DNA of 33,698 nucleotides, taken from positions 1-33,698 of the forward strand of contig CAJXVR010000037.1 of the NCBI GenBank assembly GCA_913061285.1, read 5' to 3'. The DNA is from an uncultured Verrucomicrobiota bacterium (GTDB lineage Bacteria > Verrucomicrobiota > Verrucomicrobiia > Limisphaerales > AAA164-E04). The notes under the pieces are model-generated. The model did not search any database. It saw only the letters and a program-made list of their open reading frames with translations, and was not told where the DNA came from. The position numbers and the translations under genes are program-made. Positions 2,263-28,430 of this stretch are shown piece after piece (the stretch's first letter is position 1; every line of letters begins with the position of its first letter).

Positions 2263-3237
2263 TTGAATGCTCTGCAAACAGTCAGTGCGACAGGCCCTCG
2301 ATTCATTCGCACAGCCGTCGCCGTCGCCCTAGCTATCCTCGCATCGACGGTCGCTCCAACCTGCCATATGACGGCAGCGGAGCAAAATAAAGGGGCCGCC
2401 CTTGGCATCGGCCCCAGCAATGTTGAGCGAACCTTAACGGCGATCCGCGATCCCAATTCCTCGGTCGTTCTTGTGGCAGCCCACCGAGGCGGCTACAAGA
2501 ACGACAAACTTGACCTCGCTCCAGAGAACTCGATTGAGAACATTCTAAATTGCCAGCGGAAGGGATACGATCTCTACGAAACCGATATTCAGCGCACGAA
2601 AGATGGTCACTTTGTCATCATGCATGATCCGACCATCGACCGAGAGACCAACAGCCATGGGGAGGTTCGCAACCATTCTCTGAAGGCGCTCAAACAGCTC
2701 CACAAGCGATATCGCGATGGCACCTTGTCGACAGCAAGAATGGCGACCTTAGCGGAGTTTCTGACGCAAGGGGATGGACGCACAATATTCAAGGCAGACC
2801 TCAAACCAGGTGTCAGCACCTACTTTAAAGAACTCCTCACGCTTATCGAGGAGCAGGATGGCTTTGACAAAGTCATCTTTCGGGTGCCCTACCATGAACT
2901 GCCGCGATTCATTCAGTACAAGACCGACGGCCTCGTTTGGCCCCGTCACAGCCTCATGTTCCGAATTAAGAATCGATTCGAGTTGGACCACGTCATTAAG
3001 GAATTCAATCCCTCACTCATCCATATCGATGTGAAACGCAACGACCCAGCAAACGACGAAACCCTCGATCTCATTCGCGATGCCCGAGACCGCGGGCTTC
3101 ATATTCAAACCCACGCCGAGGGTGAGCCCGAAGATTGGTCAAAACTTGTCTATGCTGGGGTGCGTATGTTCCATACGAGCGCCCCAGACCAACTCGCGCT
3201 CTTCTGTCGGACACTCAACGCATCAGCCCACCGATGA
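2263..3237 (+). CDS. Glycerophosphodiester phosphodiesterase-like (GDPD) protein
   Basis: 'AAHRGGYKN..LAPENSIENI..GYDLYETDIQRTKDGHFVIMHDPTIDRETN'. The tracked ORF starts at 2143 and overlaps the sulfatase. TTG at 2263 keeps the hydrophobic leader; ATG at 2368 would remove it. Confidence 0.8.
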   Translation: MNALQTVSATGPRFIRTAVAVALAILASTVAPTCHMTAAEQNKGAALGIGPSNVERTLTAIRDPNSSVVLVAAHRGGYKNDKLDLAPENSIENILNCQRKGYDLYETDIQRTKDGHFVIMHDPTIDRETNSHGEVRNHSLKALKQLHKRYRDGTLSTARMATLAEFLTQGDGRTIFKADLKPGVSTYFKELLTLIEEQDGFDKVIFRVPYHELPRFIQYKTDGLVWPRHSLMFRIKNRFELDHVIKEFNPSLIHIDVKRNDPANDETLDLIRDARDRGLHIQTHAEGEPEDWSKLVYAGVRMFHTSAPDQLALFCRTLNASAHR

Positions 3238-3299
3238 GCCACGCCGTCTGCGCCGCCCGAGGGCGAGACAATTCTGCCCAACCCGTCCCAAGAGAATCA

Positions 3300-4736
3300 A
3301 TGAAACCGACTCGATCTAAACTCGCCGCCATTCTACTGTTGGCCCTACTACTCTCCGTCACTGGGCAAGGCGCAGATCGCAAATCGCAAACCGCCCCAAA
3401 CAGACCAGCCAAACCCAACATCATTTTCATCTTCATCGATGACCAAGGTTACTACGACCTCGCTTGCTACGGCGCAACCGAGGTCAAGACTCCGCGAATC
3501 GACGCGATGGCAGCGTCCGGGACACGCTTCACCGACTACTACGCAGCGGCACCCATTTGTAGCCCCTCAAGAGCCGGTCTTTTGACGGGGTGCTACCCCA
3601 GACGAATCGGCAACGAGATTTGGGTACACCGCGCCGATTCCCGCTCAGGAATTCATCCCGACGAACTAACCATTGCCGAACTGCTAAAGGAGAACGGTTA
3701 CACCACTGCCTGCGTCGGAAAATGGCATCTCGGATTTCGCGAGCCATTCCTCCCGCGCAATCAAGGCTTCGATCACTACTTCGGCTTACTTCACAATCTA
3801 GACCCGGTTGAGATCATCTACTTTAAGGACACAGGCGGCGTTCCATTGATGCGCAACGACACCGTTATCAAACGCCCAGCCGATCCCGCCGAACTGACAG
3901 AGCGATATACCGATGAAGCGATTCACTTCATCGAAAAAAATAAGAATCACCCCTTCTTCCTGTATCTTCCACACACCATGCTACATAATCCGCTTGGCGT
4001 TAGCGACGCGTTCAAGGGTAGCTCAAACTGGGGCGAATACGGCGACGCCATCCAAGAACTCGACTACAACGTCGGCCGCATCTTCGATTCGCTAACGCGC
4101 TTCGACATCGATGAGAACACCATAGTGATCTACGCGTCAGACAATGGCCGAGGTCCCGGAAGAACTCCGGAACAGAAGATTCGGGGACGAAAACTTTCAA
4201 CCTATGAAGGCGGTATTCGAGTTCCTGCGATCGCCTGGGGTCCCGGCTTAGGTTTACAAGAAGGGCAAGAATCATCCACTCCTGTTCGTGCCATGGACTG
4301 GTATCCAACACTGGCGACCTTTGCTGGCATACGTGTCCCGGAAGGCAGAACTATTGACGGACGTGATATCAGCCCCTTACTCAAAGGGGAGACTCGCAGT
4401 GTGCCTTCCCCCATGGCAAATCAGTCACTGAACGCCTCCATACCACTACGACGACGATGGGATCCAGCGGGCGAATGGGCGCCCCTCTTCAGCCGCGAGG
4501 AATACAACGATGCTTTTTTCTATCATGGAAGCCACGGTGCACTCGCAGCCGTCCGATGGAGTCATTGGAAACTCACGCTCCACCCAACGCTCCAACTCTT
4601 CGACCTCACCAAAGATCCGGGAGAATCCCAGAGCATGCGCAATCGCGAAATCTCGCGCAAGCTACGCGGCATGACAGTCTTGTTTCAGGAAGAAATGCGT
4701 CTTGACGCTCGCCCCGCAGGAGACGCCCTCGATTGA
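3300..4736 (+). CDS. Secreted S1-family sulfatase (arylsulfatase-like)
   Basis: Start trimmed to ATG 3300 (MKPTRSKLAAILLLALLLSVTGQG signal peptide); 'NIIFIFIDDQG'; 'CSPSRAGLLTG'; 'CVGKWHLG'; 'ASDNG'. Confidence 0.93.
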   Translation: MKPTRSKLAAILLLALLLSVTGQGADRKSQTAPNRPAKPNIIFIFIDDQGYYDLACYGATEVKTPRIDAMAASGTRFTDYYAAAPICSPSRAGLLTGCYPRRIGNEIWVHRADSRSGIHPDELTIAELLKENGYTTACVGKWHLGFREPFLPRNQGFDHYFGLLHNLDPVEIIYFKDTGGVPLMRNDTVIKRPADPAELTERYTDEAIHFIEKNKNHPFFLYLPHTMLHNPLGVSDAFKGSSNWGEYGDAIQELDYNVGRIFDSLTRFDIDENTIVIYASDNGRGPGRTPEQKIRGRKLSTYEGGIRVPAIAWGPGLGLQEGQESSTPVRAMDWYPTLATFAGIRVPEGRTIDGRDISPLLKGETRSVPSPMANQSLNASIPLRRRWDPAGEWAPLFSREEYNDAFFYHGSHGALAAVRWSHWKLTLHPTLQLFDLTKDPGESQSMRNREISRKLRGMTVLFQEEMRLDARPAGDALD

Positions 4737-5883: not shown

Positions 5884-7308
5884 ATGAAAACCCTTTTCCT
5901 ACTTCTCTTGTTTTTGCTGGCCAGCCCGATTGCAACGGCACGAGACCACGCAAGACCAAATATCATATACTTGATGCTCGACGAATGGGGCTATTTCGAG
6001 TCGGGCCACATGGGGCATCGTGAACTACTGACACCCAACATTGACCGATTCGCGAGTGAAGGAATGCGCTTTACAAACGCCCTAGCCGGCGCCCCCGTAT
6101 GCGGCCCCACTCGTTGCACTCTACTCACAGGCCTTCATTCAGGCCACACATCCATGCGTATCAACAACGGCTTCGCTCCAATCCGAGAAGAGGAACCAAC
6201 GATTGCGAGCATGTTAAAGAAACGCGGTTACGCAACCGGCGGATTCGGCAAGTGGGGTATCGGAGGTCGCGGCACCTCAGGCGTCCCTGAGAAACATGGC
6301 TTCGACGAATTCTTTGGCTACTACGATCAAGTTCACGCCCACACATTCTACCCCAAGTATTTGATCCACAACAGCGAGGAAGTCCCACTCAAGGGCAACA
6401 AAGGAACGAGCTTCTACGAAGGAGAAACACATGCTCAAACTGAAATATTCAAAGAGTCCGTACGCTTCATTCGCGAGAACAAGGACACGTCCTTCTTCTG
6501 CTACCTCCCCTGGACACCACCCCACGGTCTCTGGGGCATCGACGAAGACGATCCGTCCTGGCAACTCTTCAAGGACAAACCCTGGAAAGCGGGGCAACGA
6601 ACCGAGAACGACGCCAAAGTCTACGCCGCATTCATCCATATGATCGATCGGCAACTTGGAAAGATTATCGCTCTCCTCAAAAAACTCGGGATCGACAACA
6701 ACACCCTCTTCATTCTCTGTGGCGACAACGGCGGCCAAGACTACTTTAAGAGCGCAGAACGCCCTCACGGTTTCTTTGGGCCCAACCTCAACCCAAACAC
6801 CGGAGAACGATTTCGAGCCGGTAAAGGCTCTCTCTACGAAGGCGGGCTCAGAGTTCCCTTTCTAGTGCGTTGGCCCGGACATATCAACGCCGCGTCCGTT
6901 TCCGACCACCTCCTTTACTTCCCTGACGTGATGCCGACCCTAGCGGCCCTCACCCAATCGAAGAGCCCTAAAACGGACGGCCTTTCTTTCCTTCCCACGC
7001 TCCTTGGCAAACCCGGGCAAGCAGAGCACGAATACCTCTATTGGGAATATCAGGGACAAACAGCAGTTCGCGCGAGAAACTGGAAGGCCTATCACTCAAG
7101 AAATGGCGATTGGGAGCTCTACAATCTCGCGAACGACATCGAAGAACAAAACAACCTCGCAGACACCGAGCCAGGAACATTAAGCCGCCTCACAACATAT
7201 GCCAAAATCGCCCATGAACCAGTGAGAGCAGGCAAGATCTACAATCGCACCCTCACGGAAAAAGATCACCGCCAGGCCCCGCACCAGAGAAACCAAAAAA
7301 GGCGTTAA
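5884..7308 (+). CDS. Secreted S1-family sulfatase (CGPTR subtype)
   Basis: Signal peptide MKTLFLLLLFLLASPIATA; 'NIIYLMLDEWGYFESGHMGH'; 'CGPTRCTLLTGLHSG'; 'FGKWGIGG'; 'CGDNGG'. Confidence 0.9.
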   Translation: MKTLFLLLLFLLASPIATARDHARPNIIYLMLDEWGYFESGHMGHRELLTPNIDRFASEGMRFTNALAGAPVCGPTRCTLLTGLHSGHTSMRINNGFAPIREEEPTIASMLKKRGYATGGFGKWGIGGRGTSGVPEKHGFDEFFGYYDQVHAHTFYPKYLIHNSEEVPLKGNKGTSFYEGETHAQTEIFKESVRFIRENKDTSFFCYLPWTPPHGLWGIDEDDPSWQLFKDKPWKAGQRTENDAKVYAAFIHMIDRQLGKIIALLKKLGIDNNTLFILCGDNGGQDYFKSAERPHGFFGPNLNPNTGERFRAGKGSLYEGGLRVPFLVRWPGHINAASVSDHLLYFPDVMPTLAALTQSKSPKTDGLSFLPTLLGKPGQAEHEYLYWEYQGQTAVRARNWKAYHSRNGDWELYNLANDIEEQNNLADTEPGTLSRLTTYAKIAHEPVRAGKIYNRTLTEKDHRQAPHQRNQKRR

Positions 7309-16475: not shown

Positions 16476-17906
16476 CTATCGCCATTGGGCTGCCCAGGTT
16501 GACGTTTGGAATTGGCTTCGAATATTCCACTCACGTAGCTCTGCAAGGAGTCGCTCCTTCTCACCCTTGACGTCCTTTTGGTTCCAAAGATTCTCTAGCT
16601 CGTTGGGATCGTTCTGTAGGTCAAACAATTGCCCCCAGGGCTCATCAAGAAAATGGACGAGTTTCCATTGCTTATCTCGAACCATCGTCATGAATTGTGA
16701 GGTCGTAAAATTGCCATCGCCCGATTGTTCGGCATACACATAGGAGCGCCCGGCATCGCTCTCACCCTCCAAGGCCGCGCGTAATGAAAGGGCTTCAAGT
16801 GGCTCAGGCTTCTTCGCGCCCGCTAACTCCAGCAGGGTCGGGCCGATATCCATCTGCTGGCAAAGGGCCTCCACAACTCGACCGCCACTAAATCGCTTTG
16901 GAGCCCAAACAATCATCGGCACCCGGGTCACCAAATCGTACATCGTCCACTTCTGGCTATGCCCGTGATCCGTCAAACAGTCGCCATGATCTGAAGTAAA
17001 TACCACAATCCCGTTCTCCAAGTATCCCTGCTCTTCCAAAGCCGCCAGGATCTCGCCAATCTTCTCATCGATCATCGTCACGTTGGCCGAATAATAGGCA
17101 CGCTGCCGATGGCGTTGCTCGTCACTCGGCTGCAACAGATGGACCACCGAGTCATGATCGACTTCGGTGTTGTGACGCCTCATCCCGTGAAAAGGTTTCG
17201 GTTGCCCCGCTAGTTCCTTCTCCGTCACCGGCAATATGGGTAGTTGTTTACTCAGATAGCGCTCTGCATACCGAGGGATCGGATCATACGGGGGATGGGG
17301 GCCAGGAAAACCAATCTGTAGAAACAGAGGATCCTTCTTAGGATAATTCTTAATCCACCAGGTCGCCAAATCCCCAACAAAGAAATCGGGATGCGAATCT
17401 TCAGGCAATTCCCACTCAAAGGCACCCAATCGCTCCCGATAGTCGGGGAGCTGACGGTAGAGTTCACGCTGTTGTTTCACCAATCCACGTGCCCGTAAGG
17501 CTTTGTCCCACTCATCGAGATAATAGCGCCCTTCCAAGTAGCGATCTTTATTCTCCACAACAAAGCGCTGATCAAATCCCAGGGGCGTCTCAAATGGCCA
17601 GGTATGCATCTTCCCAATGTTAGTACAGTGGTAACCCGCCGAATTGAGCGTTTCGACCCAGGAATGCCGCCACTCGTCGGCGTTCTTCAGAATGCCTGTT
17701 GTGTGGGGATATAATCCAGTGAAGAGACTCGCGCGCGCGGGAGCGCAGGAAGCAGCGCTGACGAAACAATGCTCGAAACTAACCCCTTCCCGAATCAAGC
17801 GATCGAGCACAGGAGTCTCCATGTGATCAAAGCCTAGTCCATTAATGGTATCGTACCGTTGCTGATCGGTAATGATGAAAATGATATTTGGTTGCTCGGA
17901 GGCCAT
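16476..17906 (-). CDS. S1-family sulfatase without signal peptide (CAPAR motif)
   Basis: 'PNIIFIITDQQRYDTING', 'SCAPARASLFTGLYPH', 'NIGKMHT', 'FTSDHGD'; the N-terminus MASEQPN begins directly at the catalytic domain. Confidence 0.9.
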   Translation of the reverse strand: MASEQPNIIFIITDQQRYDTINGLGFDHMETPVLDRLIREGVSFEHCFVSAASCAPARASLFTGLYPHTTGILKNADEWRHSWVETLNSAGYHCTNIGKMHTWPFETPLGFDQRFVVENKDRYLEGRYYLDEWDKALRARGLVKQQRELYRQLPDYRERLGAFEWELPEDSHPDFFVGDLATWWIKNYPKKDPLFLQIGFPGPHPPYDPIPRYAERYLSKQLPILPVTEKELAGQPKPFHGMRRHNTEVDHDSVVHLLQPSDEQRHRQRAYYSANVTMIDEKIGEILAALEEQGYLENGIVVFTSDHGDCLTDHGHSQKWTMYDLVTRVPMIVWAPKRFSGGRVVEALCQQMDIGPTLLELAGAKKPEPLEALSLRAALEGESDAGRSYVYAEQSGDGNFTTSQFMTMVRDKQWKLVHFLDEPWGQLFDLQNDPNELENLWNQKDVKGEKERLLAELREWNIRSQFQTSTWAAQWR

Positions 17907-18719: not shown

Positions 18720-20246
18720 ATGACGGAGAGCATCGGTAATTCCCGCAATCAAAAAATCTCCCCCCAGATCGTAGGCAGAGAGACGGTGCCCAGTCCCGAG
18801 GCGGCAAGATCATTTCCGGTCTGCTTGCTTGGCCTACCGCTCTTTGCCCCGGTTACTGAAATTCTAACCTCAGCTATCCGCCGAACCAATTCATCGAAAA
18901 CGCAGCGTGCTAAGTATTTTGCTACGGCCTGCTTCGAAACCTTGTTGACAGCCGCGGAAGACAGCGAAATCCATCGCTTCTTGTCCAACGCCGACCATCT
19001 CTTTCCCAGTGGTCTTCCTGCCCGTTTCGCGAGCAAACAATTCGGCTTATCCTTTCAGAATAGTCACTCGCAACGAACGATTACGAATCAGCTACTCGAC
19101 TATGCAGAAGCCAACGACAAGTCACTCTTTATCGTCGGGCAACGACCACAAAAACACGCCAAACCGGCGAGCAATATCTCAAAGCGCCGACCTCAACTCA
19201 AACTTGCCGGTGAGCGCTGGATCTGGCCAAAGGATTGGACAAACAAAGACGCGTTTGAACTCAACAAGCTACTGCAAGAGCGACGCCCGGATATCATTCT
19301 TTGCTCTCTAAAATACATCCCGGCAAAATCATGGATGGCTGAAAACGGCCGAGCCTTAGCAAAATCGATTGTTTTCGAACTTGGCTCGAGCGACCTTCTT
19401 TTCGAATCCATCACTGGGGTTCGTTACCAAAACAACTTCCACTCGTGGCTCCTACGTCCCTTCAATCGCTTTAAATTCCTTGCTCGATTTAATCTCCAGT
19501 ACTTCAAGCGACTAGGAAAATTCATTGCCCAAAACTTCAGCCAACGACAGGTTCTGCGAAGCTGCCAAAGAAGAACGCAAGCCCATCCCAAGGACGCCCT
19601 CTTTCCTAGGGTTCCTGCCGAGGAGTTTGATCTCATTACCCTCCCCAGCCGATTCGACATATCGTTTCTACGGCGATTTCATTCAGAGTGGCACCAGCTC
19701 GCAAACGCGACCCAGGGGGTCGTTCTCAACGCGGCAGCTGTCGAGTCATTTGATATGATGACGCTAGGGACCCTCCTACACCTCACCCAAGCCCTCCAAC
19801 AAGCAGGCCATCACCTTGTCATCCAAGACCCACCTCTTTCATTGGTTCGATTCATACAACACGCTAAACTCTCTTCAAGCCTGCATACTCGATACAATCA
19901 AGCTTCCGCAGAAGAGCTTGCTAGAGAAAGTGCATGGACCAGGGCCGGCGCTGTCGATCCCACAAGTGAAGCGATCGTGTGGAAAGGCAACGTTACCGCG
20001 CAGACCATCGATCGTATCTGGGAGGATACAACAGGAACGATCAAGCGGAAGGAACAAACCACCCAAAGCTTTCAAGTCGACCTAAACAAAGTCACCCTGC
20101 TAGATAGCACAGGCATTGGCACGATGATTAAGTTGAAAAAGCGTCTGAGCAAACAAGGATACCGCATCGCTTACGTTAACCCGAATCAGAACGTCCGAAA
20201 GGTTCTGGAGATGACCCAGCTTTCTGAATACCTCCTCAAGGACTAA
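18720..20246 (+). CDS. Degenerate WecG/TagA-like glycosyltransferase domain fused to two STAS domains
   Basis: N-term 'LLGLPLFAPVTEIL..KYFATACFETLLTAAEDSEIHRFLSNADHLFPSGLPARFASKQFG..RPDIILCSL' follows the TagA/WecG pattern. C-term has a degenerate STAS (VVLNAAAVESFDMMTLGTLLHL) and an intact one (FQVDLNKVTLLDSTGIGTMIKLKKRL). Confidence 0.75.
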   Translation: MTESIGNSRNQKISPQIVGRETVPSPEAARSFPVCLLGLPLFAPVTEILTSAIRRTNSSKTQRAKYFATACFETLLTAAEDSEIHRFLSNADHLFPSGLPARFASKQFGLSFQNSHSQRTITNQLLDYAEANDKSLFIVGQRPQKHAKPASNISKRRPQLKLAGERWIWPKDWTNKDAFELNKLLQERRPDIILCSLKYIPAKSWMAENGRALAKSIVFELGSSDLLFESITGVRYQNNFHSWLLRPFNRFKFLARFNLQYFKRLGKFIAQNFSQRQVLRSCQRRTQAHPKDALFPRVPAEEFDLITLPSRFDISFLRRFHSEWHQLANATQGVVLNAAAVESFDMMTLGTLLHLTQALQQAGHHLVIQDPPLSLVRFIQHAKLSSSLHTRYNQASAEELARESAWTRAGAVDPTSEAIVWKGNVTAQTIDRIWEDTTGTIKRKEQTTQSFQVDLNKVTLLDSTGIGTMIKLKKRLSKQGYRIAYVNPNQNVRKVLEMTQLSEYLLKD

Positions 20247-20360
20247 CCAAGAGAAGAGCGGCTCGCTTCGATTTCATTCGGGGTCAACAAATTTTAAAAT
20301 TCTATCGTGGTTCCCACCAGGTTCGCTGTATTATTCCCAGAAATCCGAGCGATAAGGACA

Positions 20361-20681
20361 ATGCAACTAGAAACTCAGGGCACCAAATTGGTTGTCTCAA
20401 AGGTTCCGGAGCTGACGGCGAGCAACGCGTCAGACATCAAGACGGAAGTTAAGGCTGCGATCGAGGACACGCATACTCAGATCGACATCGACCTTTCAAC
20501 AACGGGCTTCGTCGATAGTAGTGGCCTCGGGGTGCTAATTGGGCTGCACAAGGCGATGGTAGCGAAGCAGGGATCGATCCGAATTCTCAATCCGGGCGAG
20601 AGCGTTCAGCAAGTCCTGGAGCTCACGCGCCTCCACCGCCTCTTCGAAGTCGTCATTTCAAATCCGAATGCTACCGAGTAA
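20361..20681 (+). CDS. STAS-domain protein (anti-sigma factor antagonist-like)
   Basis: 'IDIDLSTTGFVDSSGLGVLIGLHKAMVAKQGSIRILNPGESVQQVLELTRLHRLF'. The tracked ORF starts at 20307; the STAS fold begins near Met 20361. Confidence 0.9.
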   Translation: MQLETQGTKLVVSKVPELTASNASDIKTEVKAAIEDTHTQIDIDLSTTGFVDSSGLGVLIGLHKAMVAKQGSIRILNPGESVQQVLELTRLHRLFEVVISNPNATE

Positions 20682-20762: not shown

Positions 20763-21992
20763 ATGGAGGAAGAACCTACGAACAAGCCCCGAATCCTCAT
20801 CGGTGGCGTTCCCTTCGGGCGCGGCAATGTTGCTGATGAAGCGGTTGCGGAAGCGGTCGTAACGATCGTCCGTGAACTCTGCCCAACGGCAGAAATATCC
20901 GTCAGCACAGATCAGGAAGCTCCAACGCGGAAAAGGCTTAGCATAAAAACCAGCCCACTGATTGAGTTTCCGGATTCAAAGATCAGCCAGGAAATGACCC
21001 GTGAAATCATACGGGACCAGGACTGGATTATTTGGGCTGGCGCGTTTGGGCTTTCCGATTATCCGCTCGAAGCGCTGAGCCTCCTCGATCAGGCGCAGCA
21101 GGAAGGTGTCAAAACCATTATTTTCTGCGTTGGCCAGGACTCTCGGGCAACACGCCCCACTACGTCAGGCGCGAAGAAAGCACTCTTCGGAACGATTCGC
21201 TTTCTCACCGCTGGAATCGTCGATCTCAACGCAGAATCAGAGGCGAAGCGGGATGCGTCCCTCGTTGAAATAATAAACCGAGTGATCCCCAAGACGGATC
21301 TCGTCATCTTGAGAGATCACGCAACGGCCAACGAACTCGGCAAGCTCCTCGATGCACCGGAACCAAAGCTGATTGGGGCTGACCCGATGATCTCATTGAC
21401 TTGTCAGGACATCGACACCTGTCGTTTTCCACGAGATACGATGGACTTTCTCGAACGATCCGATTTCAAGATCGCGCTCAGTATTTCTAGCGATTATCCT
21501 GCGGCCTCTTTGCGGAGAATCAAAAGCACACTGGATTCACTCATCACGAACAAGCAAGCCAAGTTCCTCGGTATCCCCTTGAATCCATCGACGGATACTC
21601 AGGCGCTTACCGAACTTCAATCCCAACTTGAAACTCCAGCAGCCATGCTTGTCCTCAAGGGAAGCTATGACCCGGACGAAATCATGGCGGCTACAAGCAG
21701 AGTTGACGTAGTGATTAGTGACCAACGCGAACTCCTCTTCCTAGCAGCGAACACGTTGACTCCCTTCGTCAACCTTGGACCTCACTCGTCTAGCAAAACG
21801 TTGGCCGAGCAATTTGGTCTTCCGACTGTTAACAATTGCAGCGATGTGGAATCCGAAATCTTCGCAAAGGAGATTGCGGAGCTCACGGAGATTCGAGCCT
21901 CCTTTCGAAAGAAAGCCATCACGGTGAAACTCGACATGCTCGCCCAGCTCAAAGCCGCAAAACAGCAGTTGAGTGATACGCTTAACCGCTAG
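20763..21992 (+). CDS. Polysaccharide pyruvyl transferase family (CsaB-like) protein
   Basis: 'ILIGGVPFGRGNVADEAVAEAVVTIVRE', 'DWIIWAGAFGLSDYPLEALSLLDQAQQEGVKTIIFCVGQ', 'TDLVILRDHATANELGKL'. Confidence 0.75.
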   Translation: MEEEPTNKPRILIGGVPFGRGNVADEAVAEAVVTIVRELCPTAEISVSTDQEAPTRKRLSIKTSPLIEFPDSKISQEMTREIIRDQDWIIWAGAFGLSDYPLEALSLLDQAQQEGVKTIIFCVGQDSRATRPTTSGAKKALFGTIRFLTAGIVDLNAESEAKRDASLVEIINRVIPKTDLVILRDHATANELGKLLDAPEPKLIGADPMISLTCQDIDTCRFPRDTMDFLERSDFKIALSISSDYPAASLRRIKSTLDSLITNKQAKFLGIPLNPSTDTQALTELQSQLETPAAMLVLKGSYDPDEIMAATSRVDVVISDQRELLFLAANTLTPFVNLGPHSSSKTLAEQFGLPTVNNCSDVESEIFAKEIAELTEIRASFRKKAITVKLDMLAQLKAAKQQLSDTLNR

Positions 21993-22176: not shown

Positions 22177-23034
22177 TCAACGTGCTGGAAGTGAGTGACC
22201 GGTCTTTCGCTGCGTGCGAAGAGCCAACCACAAGATATCGGCATCCGTCGTTGACTGTGGCGTAGGCTTGACCCAACGGAATCGAACAGGGTTGATTCCT
22301 TGAGAGGCAGAAGCACTCCACTTATGAATCTCTGCATGTCCGTCAGCGAAGGCCAATCCACCAGCACTGTTATGATAGCTAGCAGGAAGGTCAACCCAAG
22401 GGTTGCCACGTTCCAATTCAGGAGTAAAACAACCAGCATCATTGATGCTATCTGGGTTCTCATCCATGTATACCCATGTTTGCGATGGTCCTGGATCGTT
22501 CAATCCTGAAGCCTTAGCAGTGTAGGTAGGATAATCGCGGGATGCCCAAGCATTGGTGTCATCACCGATGCGGATATTCCCAGAGATACTTCGAACACGC
22601 TCTGTCCAACCGAGACCACGTTGAGTTGGGCTCACTTTGTTGTCAGAAGGGCACTTGAATATATTTCGTGCGTTGGAGAAGTAGGTCGCGAGGACGGAAT
22701 ACTTCGGATCCAAGAGGAAGTTGACATTGGTGTTGTCTTGCCGGCTATCCCACGTCAACCAACCAGTGACCCAAGCACCTTGAGCGGTTGATCCACCATG
22801 ACGAGCAGTAGGAAAACTGTCCTCGTTGTCACCCAAATACATGTGACAAGCAAGCATGAGCTGCTTGTTGTTGCTCATACAAGAAACGCCCTTGGCTTTT
22901 TCCTTGGCTTTGCCCAAAGCAGGCAAAAGCATTCCAGCTAGAATCGCAATAATCGCGATCACGACGAGCAGCTCGATAAGCGTAAAAGCTCCTCGGGCCC
23001 CGATTGACCATTTTTTATTCTTCAAGTTTTTCAT
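22177..23034 (-). CDS. Type II secretion-like pseudopilin, H-X9-DG family
   Basis: '[34 protein letters not shown]' prepilin cleavage/methylation segment; C-terminal '[20 protein letters not shown]'. Confidence 0.92.
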
Positions 23035-23268: not shown

Positions 23269-23310
23269 TTGCATTTGCAAAATACTCACGATAGAAACAG
23301 TGCAATTGCA
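23269..23310. promoter_or_regulatory. Pair of TTGCA/TGCAA inverted repeats upstream of the sigma-54 activator gene
   Basis: TTGCATTTGCAA at 23269-23280 and perfect palindrome TGCAATTGCA at 23301-23310; centres 31 bp apart; the second abuts the annotated ATG at 23310. Confidence 0.5.
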
Positions 23311-24665
23311 TGATTGTAGCTATTTTTGAAGGAGCATCAAGCGGGCAGATTACCCATCAGATCGAAACGCTGGGTCATCGGCATCAAACATGTGATGAAG
23401 CTGGGATCAGTGAACTAAGCCACCATTCTACCGGCCTGGTCTATGTGTTTCCCATCGCTGTCACCCAAACCTCCCTTTGGCCCAGCCTCCGAGTCCGACT
23501 TGCTCACACGAATCGGCTTTATATCGTTGCTGGCGAGAATGCGCCGACGGACCAAATCGTCTCAGCAGTCAGGGACGGTGCGTACGACTATTTAGACCTC
23601 AACGACAGCGATACCCGTTGGAATAAGGCCCTCGAAAAGGCGGTGGAATCCCAAAGTCTTTGGATCCAACTCTATGGTGGAGCCCCGATGGAGACGGAAG
23701 ATATGTTGATTGGACAGTCTCCCGGTATGCAACATCTCAAAGAGGCGATTTCTCGACTTGGGCCAACGGACGCTACCGTGTTAATCCTTGGAGATTCAGG
23801 CGTCGGCAAAGAACGGGTCGCCGAGGCCCTTCATAAGGCGAGTGGGAAAGGTCCCTTTGTCCCCATTAATTGTGCTGCGATCCCCAAAGACTTGATTGAA
23901 GCCGAACTCTTCGGCGCAGTTAAAGGGGCCTACACGGGAGCTCTCAAAGACCGCCAAGGCCTGGTAGAACAAGCCCGTGGGGGAACCCTTTTCCTGGACG
24001 AAATCGGTGAATTCGATATCAGCCTCCAACCAAAGCTGCTCCGCTTCCTCGAAACGAGAATGGCAAGAAAGGTGGGTGGAACGAGTGAGTACAAAGCAGA
24101 TCTACGTTTGATCTCAGCAACCAATCGCAATCTCCAAGATGATATCGACTCAAATAGCTTCCGAGCGGACCTTTATTACCGTCTGTCAGAAATCACCCTC
24201 CGCGTTCCTCCCCTTCGGCTTCGACTGGAGGACATTCCATTGTTCACGATTAGCTTCATGCAGAAAGCTGGGGAACGTTTCGGCAAAATGTTTGATCAAG
24301 TCGAACCAGGCCTAGTCAAACGATTTCAAAGCTACGATTGGCCAGGGAATGTGCGGGAGCTTAAAAGTCATATAGACCGAATGGTTATCCTGTACGATGG
24401 ACCGATTCTCAGGGAGGCATGGTGGGATCAACCCCAGAGCGGGCAGGCTCGGGCCCAACAAGCCGCAGGAACGACCGATCCAGCAAAAACCAGATTTCCA
24501 CACGACCTTTCCGCCCCCCCCACGAGAATCCCCTCACAAAAGGAGCGAATCGAGCGAGCCAAGGAACTCTTGGCCAACGACGACCAGAATTTGAGCTGGG
24601 TATCAGCTCAGCTAGGAATCCACCCCACGACGCTCTATCGCTGGAGAAAACAAGGCAAAGTATAG
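23310..24665 (+). CDS. Sigma-54-dependent transcriptional activator with degenerate receiver domain
   Basis: Walker A 'GDSGVGKE', 'ELFGAVKGAYTGA' (GAFTGA variant), 'GGTLFLDEIGE', 'FRADLYYRL', 'YDWPGNVREL'; C-term HTH 'VSAQLGIHPTTLYRWRKQGKV'. Confidence 0.95.
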   Translation: MIVAIFEGASSGQITHQIETLGHRHQTCDEAGISELSHHSTGLVYVFPIAVTQTSLWPSLRVRLAHTNRLYIVAGENAPTDQIVSAVRDGAYDYLDLNDSDTRWNKALEKAVESQSLWIQLYGGAPMETEDMLIGQSPGMQHLKEAISRLGPTDATVLILGDSGVGKERVAEALHKASGKGPFVPINCAAIPKDLIEAELFGAVKGAYTGALKDRQGLVEQARGGTLFLDEIGEFDISLQPKLLRFLETRMARKVGGTSEYKADLRLISATNRNLQDDIDSNSFRADLYYRLSEITLRVPPLRLRLEDIPLFTISFMQKAGERFGKMFDQVEPGLVKRFQSYDWPGNVRELKSHIDRMVILYDGPILREAWWDQPQSGQARAQQAAGTTDPAKTRFPHDLSAPPTRIPSQKERIERAKELLANDDQNLSWVSAQLGIHPTTLYRWRKQGKV

Positions 24666-25016: not shown

Positions 25017-25859
25017 ATGAAATTAAAGACGATGAATCCCCGTGTTTTTCTTTCGACGAAGCAGCGCGCCTTTACGCTCATCGAACTCTTGGTGGTGATC
25101 GCCATCATTGCCATTCTTGCAGGGATGCTGCTTCCGGCTCTCAGCAAAGCCAAAGGTAAGGCCCACGGCATTTTCTGCATGAACAATCAACGCCAGATGA
25201 CCCTGAGTTGGATGATGTATGCTGACGACAACGATGATCGGATTCCACCGAATCACATCAATGGACGAAATCGAAACGTCACCTGGGTGCAAGGATGGCT
25301 GGATAACGCCTCTCCTGTCTCAGATAACACCAATACCGTTTTCCTCATGGAGAGCCATCTCTGGCCATACCTCAACTCTATTAAATCCTGGCGCTGTCCC
25401 GCAGATAAGAGCCTTTCCAAACACGGAGGAAAACAGATTCCGCGTGTCCGGAGTGTTTCTATGAACAACTGGCTCAACCCCAATCAGATATGGTCCGGCC
25501 AGACAGAATTCAAAGCCTACCGAAAAATCGCGGATATGACGCGCCCTTCACCCACCGGCATTTGGGTCGTTCTCGATGAGCGGGAAGACCGGATCAACAA
25601 TGGCTTCTTCGTAGTCGATATGCAGGGATTTAGCCCCCAAAACCCCCGCCATTACGAAATGGTGGACATGCCGGCAAGTTATCACAATGGAGCGGCTGGG
25701 GTTGCCTTTGCTGATGGACATTCCGAAATTCACAAATGGAGGGATTCCCGAACAACGCCCCCAGTGAGAAAAGGGCGTAATCTTCCTCTTACCGCAGGAT
25801 CAAGAGACAATGTGGACGTCGCCTGGCTTCAACAGCGTAGCACAGGACTTGTCCGTTAG
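25017..25859 (+). CDS. Type II secretion-like pseudopilin, H-X9-DG family
   Basis: '[34 protein letters not shown]'; '[20 protein letters not shown]'. Confidence 0.92.
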
Positions 25860-25944: not shown

Positions 25945-26808
25945 ATGACGGACTCATCAAAGTATCTGCCAAAACGTGAAATCGGATGTTCGGAACATGG
26001 TCTTCGTGCCCTTTCGCTTCGCGAACGATTCGAGCTCCTCAAAAACCTAGGGATTGAAGCACTCGAACTTCGACTGGGAAAAGAACTGTCGGAGGATGCC
26101 GCCAAGCTTGCGAACGAAGAACAGCTCGCCGCGCTACGCAGCCTCCGCGACCAATTCAAAATCAGTACCCCCTTTTGCTCCGTCGAGTGCGATCTCACTT
26201 CAATCAACTCGGCCGATTCGAATCAAAATCTGCCCCAAGCCATTGAACACTTTCGGACCGCAGCAAGCATTGGAGCGAGGACAATAAATCTCACCGTCAC
26301 ACAGGTTCCTACGATCGAAGTGACTGAATCGATTTGGGAGCGTTTCGTTGAGTCCCTTTGCCAACTCGGTGAAGAAGCGAGTCAGCTAGGCCTCAGTATC
26401 GCCCTTAAAACCAACGGACACATCGAAGAAGAAACTCAGTCCGGTCTTTTTATTGTCGAAACGCTGATGACAAATCGAAGCACATTGACTCGACTGATGC
26501 CGACACTCCCGAGCAACGTTGGATTCGGATACAGTCCAGGAATGTTCAAGGCGGTCAATCCCAGCGACCTGCGATTCGGAATCGATATCATCGAAGAACG
26601 AACTGAAACCTGTTTTCTCCAAGACTGGAGACAGCAGAATCGCAGTCTCACAGGCGCGGTGATTGGCGCCGATGATCTCGACTATCGCTCTCTCTTGCGA
26701 CGGCTTCCAACCAATACCCCTTGCCTTATTTCGCTCCCGTCAATCAAGTCGGCCAAAGTAGAAATCGAAACGAGCATGGCCTATCTCAATAGAATTCTCG
26801 CCCCATGA
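25945..26808 (+). CDS. Sugar phosphate isomerase/epimerase-like TIM-barrel protein
   Basis: 'LRERFELLKNLGIEALELRLGKEL', 'FCSVECDLTS', 'HFRTAASIGARTINLTV', 'IALKTNGH'. The tracked ORF start (25810) overlaps the pseudopilin; ATG 25945 preferred. Confidence 0.65.
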   Translation: MTDSSKYLPKREIGCSEHGLRALSLRERFELLKNLGIEALELRLGKELSEDAAKLANEEQLAALRSLRDQFKISTPFCSVECDLTSINSADSNQNLPQAIEHFRTAASIGARTINLTVTQVPTIEVTESIWERFVESLCQLGEEASQLGLSIALKTNGHIEEETQSGLFIVETLMTNRSTLTRLMPTLPSNVGFGYSPGMFKAVNPSDLRFGIDIIEERTETCFLQDWRQQNRSLTGAVIGADDLDYRSLLRRLPTNTPCLISLPSIKSAKVEIETSMAYLNRILAP

Positions 26809-28430
26809 AGAAGCCCGCAACGAGAAAGGCAAGGTTCTGGCGAGGACAAGAGCCCTGGCCTGTCTCTCTACTACACAGGTTCCTTGCAGTCATCTCGCTT
26901 AGCCTTGGGATTGCGACCAATATTGCCCTTAGCGCTCCTGCGGAAGCGCCCGCCAACATCGCACCACCTCAGTTCACATCCATTTCCGTCAATGCTGAGT
27001 CCTCCGGGATCGAACTCAAGTGGATCTCAGCAAACGGCTCACGCTACAATCTAGAATCCTCCTCTGATCTAATCTCGTGGTCACGCGGAACAACGGTCAC
27101 AGGGGGGACCCATTTCATTGACACCACCGAAGAGTTCTTCGAACAGCGATTCTTTCGTCTCACTCTAACCAGCACCCCAAAGCTACATAATATTCTCCTT
27201 ATCATCGTGGATGATTGGGGCATCGATTCTAGTCCGATCGACAACCCTACAGGGTCCAACCTGCCCCTAATGCCGAATCTCGAATCACTGGCCGAAACCG
27301 GAATCCGGTTTCAAAATGCCTACGCCCTCGCCAAGTGTTCACCAACTCGGGCGAGCATCATGACAGGGCGGTATCCCTTCAGACACGGCATTGGTAGTCC
27401 CGCTGGAGCAGTGCTCCCGGTCTCGGAACTCACGCTTCCCGAGGCCCTAAGCGACTGTAGCGCCTATGCACTGGGCAGCTTTGGAAAATGGCATCTCGGA
27501 GGGGGCAATTCAGGACCAAGAAACAATGGAGGATGGCCGACCTTCGCTGGAGGCCTCGGTTCGGGAGTCGCAGATTACTACAATTGGCAAAAGACAATTC
27601 TTACTGACAACGAACCGCCCCAAACGTTGGCCACGACGAGCTACACTACGACCGACACCACAAACGATGCGATTAAATGGATTGCGGACCAGGAAGACCA
27701 GCCTTGGTTCTGTTGGCTTGCCTACAACGCAGCTCACTCACCCTTTCACGCCCCACCGATCACGGTAGCCGGACAGACTAATCCAAACCCCACTGCGCGC
27801 AATAATCGTGATCGATTTGAAACCATGCTCTGGGCAATGGATGCCGAAATCGGGCGTCTCATCGATACCATTGACCGCACCAATACCAATATCATTCTCC
27901 TCGGCGACAATGGCACTCCCGCAGGGGTGATCCAACCCCCCTTCGATCGCACACACTCAAAGGGAACTCTCTACGAAGGCGGCACACATGTCCCCATGAT
28001 TGTTACCGGGCCCATCGTTTCTACCCCCGGTAGCGTCAATGAACAACTGGTCCATTGTGTCGATGTCTTCCCGACGATTTTAGAATTGGCCGGAGGCGAT
28101 CCCAAAAGCCTTACCACAACTCTCGATGGCATCAGCCTCATTCCGAACCTTCAAGATCAGGGCCAAAGCAATCGAGCAATCGTCTGCGAAGCCTTTGGGC
28201 GCACCGAAAGCAGCCCCGGTAGAGCAATCAGAAACGGTGACTACAAACTGATTATCTTCGACGATCCGAGCCGCTCGACGGACACGGCTGCGCTAGAGCT
28301 CTACTATCTTCCTAGCGACCCCAACGAGTCAAACAACCTCCTGTCGAGAGAGCTCACGGACGTTCAGCGAATTGCCTACGACCAGCTCCTCGAGATCAAC
28401 CTAGAACTTGGGGGCAATTTCAACCAATAA
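26805..28430 (+). CDS. S1-family sulfatase with an N-terminal FN3-like/'ExSxDLxxW' accessory domain
   Basis: 'GIELKWISANGSRYNLESSSDLISWSRG...QRFFRLTL' then 'NILLIIVDDWG', 'CSPTRASIMTGRYPFRHG', 'FGKWHLGG', 'LGDNG'. ATGA overlap with the upstream gene. Confidence 0.92.
   Translation: MKKPATRKARFWRGQEPWPVSLLHRFLAVISLSLGIATNIALSAPAEAPANIAPPQFTSISVNAESSGIELKWISANGSRYNLESSSDLISWSRGTTVTGGTHFIDTTEEFFEQRFFRLTLTSTPKLHNILLIIVDDWGIDSSPIDNPTGSNLPLMPNLESLAETGIRFQNAYALAKCSPTRASIMTGRYPFRHGIGSPAGAVLPVSELTLPEALSDCSAYALGSFGKWHLGGGNSGPRNNGGWPTFAGGLGSGVADYYNWQKTILTDNEPPQTLATTSYTTTDTTNDAIKWIADQEDQPWFCWLAYNAAHSPFHAPPITVAGQTNPNPTARNNRDRFETMLWAMDAEIGRLIDTIDRTNTNIILLGDNGTPAGVIQPPFDRTHSKGTLYEGGTHVPMIVTGPIVSTPGSVNEQLVHCVDVFPTILELAGGDPKSLTTTLDGISLIPNLQDQGQSNRAIVCEAFGRTESSPGRAIRNGDYKLIIFDDPSRSTDTAALELYYLPSDPNESNNLLSRELTDVQRIAYDQLLEINLELGGNFNQ

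Follow-up and report, generated by a model that had tools for sequence, protein, structure and literature searches.

A divergent WecG-STAS-STAS copy in a Verrucomicrobiota genome is a candidate pseudoglycosyltransferase with a possible role in exopolysaccharide control

What does a cell retain when it keeps a glycosyltransferase gene whose catalytic residues have mostly been replaced, and whose product still carries an intact phosphorylation site? This question is raised by an open reading frame of the window, by which we mean the whole 33,698-nucleotide stretch of DNA analysed here. As an earlier note made from the sequence had proposed, this single frame of 508 amino acids joins a WecG/TagA domain to tandem STAS domains. 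Indeed, Pfam finds PF03808 (WecG) at residues 91-224, with 38.8 bits for a cut-off of 27.4, and two STAS matches at residues ~306-380 and 423-504. The NCBIfam model TIGR00696 scores 22.2 bits on the same frame against a cut-off of 69, and TagA crystal chains are matched by phmmer (E 3e-4). The layout, WecG and then two STAS domains in about 500 amino acids, is that of the WecG-STAS-STAS proteins of Verrucomicrobiota. No promoter was identified upstream of the frame, where the hits of a promoter/terminator scan did not rise above those of shuffled sequence. The features of the frame are the following.

18720 to 20246, + strand: pseudoglycosyltransferase-STAS-STAS candidate frame, 508 aa, ATG to stop
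18813 to 19415, + strand: residues 32-232, a domain of predicted TagA/WecG fold that has lost its catalytic residues (Pfam, Foldseek, residue mapping)
18930 to 18932, + strand: Cys71, which replaces Asn39 of TagA (alignment)
19008 to 19010, + strand: Ser97, at the position of the TagA catalytic Asp65 (alignment)
19416 to 19604, + strand: residues 233-295, corresponding to the C-terminal appendage of TagA and a helical linker, with the Arg221 and Arg224 positions lost
19605 to 19904, + strand: STAS1 (residues 296-395), whose phosphosite loop reads DMMT and not DSTG (codons 19752-19763)
19962 to 20243, + strand: STAS2 (residues 415-508), which retains the DSTG phosphosite (codons 20103-20114)

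The N-terminal part is predicted to fold like TagA, and the AlphaFold comparison suggested in the earlier note bears out its assignment. In the AF2 model of the window protein (pLDDT 81.9), built on a 43-row alignment which holds intact relatives only and may lead the predicted fold, residues ~30-232 have TagA as their best PDB match in Foldseek, with a TM score of 0.82-0.86 by TagA length and an E value of 7e-10. The appendage, which in TagA is required for catalysis and membrane binding, is poorly predicted: pLDDT is 55-66 over residues 231-260, versus 88-92 in the intact copy that the same genome carries on contig C6.

When TagA numbering is transferred through the alignment of this intact paralogue, 7 of the 9 pocket residues taken from PMC6493773 are changed in the window copy (N39 to C71, D65 to S97, R83 to S115, Q167 to A202, E168 to K203, R221 to F253 and R224 to Q260), T37 (T69) and R214 (R246) being kept. 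The Asp-to-Ser and Asn-to-Cys losses noticed earlier thus map to D65 and N39. In TagA itself, the Asp65Ala substitution lowers the activity from 1.5 to 0.052 uM/min (PMC6493773). The pocket residues are retained in 42 of 42 aligned relatives, save for a Q or an A at the Q167 position; among 90 other aligned family members the Asp65 position holds Asp in 87 and Glu in 3, and PK.E is present in all 90. The motifs RVxGxDL and PKQExW had been described as not recognisable. Their letters are indeed lost, but both sites can be aligned in place with the intact relatives, GCPKQEKW reading KYIPAKSW and ERVAGSDL reading NSHSQRTI. The family alignment also agrees with the earlier reading of the STAS sites: STAS1 reads FDMMTLG at the DSTG site of the family and lacks the phosphoacceptor Ser, and STAS2 retains LDSTGIG, with the Ser of the D-S-[ST]-G motif present. 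On these residues, canonical glycosyltransferase chemistry has very probably been lost from the window copy, and we infer that the protein probably keeps the TagA fold without the ability to transfer sugar.

The intact WecG-STAS-STAS copy (C6:33412-34902, Pfam 207 bits) lies in a complete exopolysaccharide (EPS) cluster together with an initiating sugar transferase, Wzx-like and Wzy-like proteins, glycosyltransferases, export proteins, an exosortase, a pyruvyltransferase and a single STAS protein. Sequence comparison indicates that the window frame is a divergent duplicate of this enzyme. Constraint on the duplicate is asymmetric, STAS2 having evolved at the rate of the C6 copy and the glycosyltransferase (GT) domain far faster. 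In the STAS2 tree the window and C6 copies are sisters (98/92), with tips of 0.96 and 0.95, respectively; they are 38% identical over this domain and keep 17 of 24 and 17 of 23 conserved columns. The GT tree gives tips of 10 for the window copy and 0.77 for the C6 copy; the former branch is so long that the placement of the window copy is unsafe, the contrast in length being unaffected. Furthermore, the window copy keeps 25 of 81 conserved GT columns, versus 75 of 84 in the C6 copy, and its GT identity to the family is 24%, where the lowest canonical pair reaches 52%. The same genome has a third, stand-alone WecG-like gene (G000:C273:4007-4705), and a WecG match without the fusion occurs in 9 of 10 other genomes of the family.

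Could the catalytic loss go with the fusion to STAS domains, as the earlier note had suggested checking? The fusion is an ordinary, order-wide family in Verrucomicrobiota, with matches in 53 of the 321 genomes of the order (E<=1e-25). Among the best 80 of 198 relatives kept in the alignment-based pattern search, the named ones belong to Verrucomicrobiota, mostly to subdivision 3/Limisphaerales, and also to Opitutales and Verrucomicrobiales; the isolate Rubritalea marina has a shorter fusion match. These patterns demand intact motifs, so that this search is uninformative on degenerate copies; when the genome collection was searched with patterns from one sequence, no match was obtained. Shorter WecG fusions with one STAS domain are also found in the order (L020:1492-2652 and L021:1405-2574). 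All seven tallied fusion neighbourhoods contain group-1 glycosyltransferases and polysaccharide export (SLBB) proteins, and some contain Wzy. Since fusions with an enzyme that looks active are common, as the Asp and Glu counts at the Asp65 position attest, the idea that the loss goes with the fusion is wrong. Only the window duplicate has lost the site, and by this alignment the loss is peculiar to it.

Two further genes follow the window frame in the same orientation.

20361 to 20681, + strand: single STAS protein in which DSSG is preserved; identity with its counterpart in the C6 EPS cluster, 60-61%
20763 to 21992, + strand: protein resembling a polysaccharide pyruvyltransferase, its RLH and GTK motifs changed; identity with the C6 copy, 43%

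The ATG at 20361, preceded by AAGGA, is a better fit for the start of the single STAS gene than the GTG at 20307. Fusion, single STAS and pyruvyltransferase form three adjacent frames, all of them open, and the identities indicate that the last two are also copies of C6-cluster genes, in an order that differs from that of the cluster. The PEP-site residues of CsaB are R148, H308 and K328 (PMC10435577). In the window pyruvyltransferase, mapped by motif only, RLH is replaced by QRE and GTK by HSS, LRD being kept; a homologue in genome G003 is also without the His, with RLP instead of RLH. Two enzyme copies in the row are therefore changed, STAS2 and the single STAS being intact. Elsewhere in the 34 kb, five sulfatase genes are found (627-2234, 3135-4736, 5884-7308, 16476-17906 and 26805-28430), and two DUF1559 pseudopilin-like genes (22177-23034 and 25017-25859) flank a sigma-54 activator (23310-24665) in which no receiver domain was recognised. 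G003 has counterparts of the activator (77% identity) and of the second pseudopilin (85%).

Which kinase and phosphatase could act on these STAS domains? The window locus is without a kinase of its own. The genome has one strong HATPase_c_2 (RsbW-type kinase) match, of 77 bits, the next being 32; this match lies in a 603-aa protein that also carries a GAF and a SpoIIE (PP2C) phosphatase domain. Its gene, at C6:8660-10468, shares a contig with the EPS cluster and is followed by that of a receiver protein. Of 97 genomes, 27 have a homologue of this kinase-GAF-PP2C protein, and in at least 19 of these a STAS match accompanies it. They co-occur with the fusion (15 of 20 versus 12 of 77 genomes, p 8e-7; 13 of 18 versus 5 of 44 at family level, p 5e-6), in tests whose lists were compiled by hand, which handle kinship by counting families only and which include two one-STAS GT-STAS proteins and two kinases matched in pieces. 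A row of STAS, kinase-GAF-PP2C, REC and WecG-STAS-STAS genes is found at L116:5163-9449 and L152:5317-9218; the same row is present at L134:4992-9353, where the single STAS was not detected, and in Rubritalea marina (L150, 3468-9185) the module adjoins the fusion on the opposite strand. This module resembles the Vibrio SypA-SypE pair, and in Verrucomicrobiota it is linked to EPS genes. Gene neighbourhoods and co-occurrence thus uphold, for the family, the link proposed for this locus with partner switching and with the synthesis of envelope polysaccharide; the sensor role also put forward in the earlier note is hypothetical.

Has the degenerate copy been under selection? Neutral drift would break the frame, which was therefore kept open by selection: in simulations starting from the C6 frame, 30 of 2000 frames were open at 81% identity and 0 of 2000 at 67% or below. 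A long-neutral pseudogene is rejected on this basis, and a recent decay is compatible with the simulation. Furthermore, identity to C6 at second codon positions is 0.52 in the GT domain, 0.53 in STAS1 and 0.70 in STAS2, versus 0.26 by chance, the linker being near chance. These figures show selection for a folded protein over most of the history of the window copy, a selection that may since have ceased. The assembly counts 570 contigs and 8.0 Mb, versus 4.8-4.9 Mb in three same-genus genomes, an excess that may come from the co-binning of two strains. A foreign contig was considered and rejected: the aminotransferase, the Bax inhibitor, the sigma-54 activator and one DUF1559 gene of the window are 77-87% identical to same-genus genomes, so that the contig belongs to the genus. 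The backbone around the three-gene row is common to the genus. Searches free of the motif requirement, run on overlapping sets of 321 genomes from the order, 385 from the class and 390 from the phylum, gave no orthologue of the degenerate form, and same-genus genomes were among those that lacked it. A decaying relic is consequently the main rival explanation.

According to this rival, the row is the remnant of an earlier, second EPS locus that is losing its enzymes, and the open frame records past selection only. The confinement of the degenerate form to one genome among those searched fits such a history, as do the altered pyruvyltransferase next to it and the lost phosphosite of STAS1. However, no simulated frame survived at or below 67% identity, second codon positions stand well above chance in all three domains, the constraint on STAS2 and on the single STAS matches that on intact copies, and three adjacent frames are open together; we therefore consider a relic unlikely. 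With catalytic residues mostly lost, and the fold and one switch domain kept, the window protein is probably a regulator of the polysaccharide pathway and not an enzyme. The best single explanation, to which we give somewhat better than even credence, is that it is a pseudoenzyme paralogue kept for a regulatory role borne by STAS2.

Other readings give the GT domain a different part. It could be a folded spacer in a plain STAS regulator, for instance of a sigma factor or another non-EPS target, as might be expected from STAS2 being the sole part conserved at a normal rate and from the location outside an EPS cluster; but the next two genes derive from EPS-cluster genes and the GT part is still under constraint at the level of the fold, which makes this quite unlikely. 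It could also be an enzyme with a new chemistry, its pocket remodelled for another substrate or around another catalytic residue. The fast change could then be adaptive, and the predicted fold and the T37 and R214 positions are kept. Against this stand the loss of Asp65, Asn39, Arg83, Gln167-Glu168, Arg221 and Arg224, the poorly predicted appendage and the small share of GT columns conserved, and we hold a new chemistry to be improbable.

How might a pseudoenzyme kept for its STAS2 act? STAS2 and the neighbouring single STAS would be substrates of the SypE-like serine kinase/PP2C phosphatase of the cell. The dead copy might compete for this kinase/phosphatase, or pair through the conserved fold with the active WecG-STAS-STAS protein, and in either case it would tune the committed lipid-linked step of EPS assembly. 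More specifically, and only tentatively, a STAS-regulated glycosyltransferase may have been duplicated and its dead domain kept as a dedicated subunit, a pairing or titrating surface; if true, a SypE-like kinase/phosphatase would here drive a post-translational brake on EPS assembly. Regulation by pseudoenzymes is well established in other enzyme classes, and we found no report of a STAS-borne pseudoglycosyltransferase in the open-licence literature searched. The wider family matters more, as it has STAS switches physically joined to a glycosyltransferase of the kind that commits a lipid-linked sugar to EPS assembly, and its intact members are genetically linked to a SypE-like kinase/phosphatase.

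In comparison with known systems, the window copy shares with TagA/TarA of the WecB/TagA/CpsF family (GT26; PDB 7mpk, 7n41 and 5wb4) the fold, as predicted over residues ~30-232, and the residues Thr37 and Arg214, and differs from it by the seven changed residues and the two appended STAS domains. With the WecG-STAS-STAS fusions of Limisphaerales, Opitutales and Verrucomicrobiales, including the C6 copy, it shares domain order, length and the STAS2 phosphosite; the intact fusions keep the active site that it has lost, and the C6 copy and the seven tallied relatives sit among EPS genes, a setting that the window copy does not share.

In Caulobacter, the WecG/TagA enzyme HfsJ is a control point for surface polysaccharide and is inhibited by the protein HfiA (PMC3900383), so that an enzyme of this type can be a protein-controlled gate; that source does not present HfiA as a STAS protein or as a dead enzyme copy. 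Anabaena all4160 likewise joins a STAS domain to a glycosyltransferase (PMC8256260, citing Wang et al. 2007, whose title concerns heterocyst envelope polysaccharide), but its STAS is N-terminal, at the other end, and the review does not describe the protein as inactive. Another regulatory parallel is SypA/SypE of Vibrio fischeri, where a STAS protein and a joined serine kinase/serine phosphatase control polysaccharide below transcription (PMC10120452). The Verrucomicrobiota module likewise has a STAS protein plus one kinase-phosphatase protein; unlike SypE, the latter has a GAF as its middle domain, the receiver is a separate gene, and STAS is also fused to a glycosyltransferase. This fusion suggests the kind of protein on which SypA-type STAS proteins may act and, as it puts the STAS on the same chain as its presumed target, makes the question of that target directly testable.
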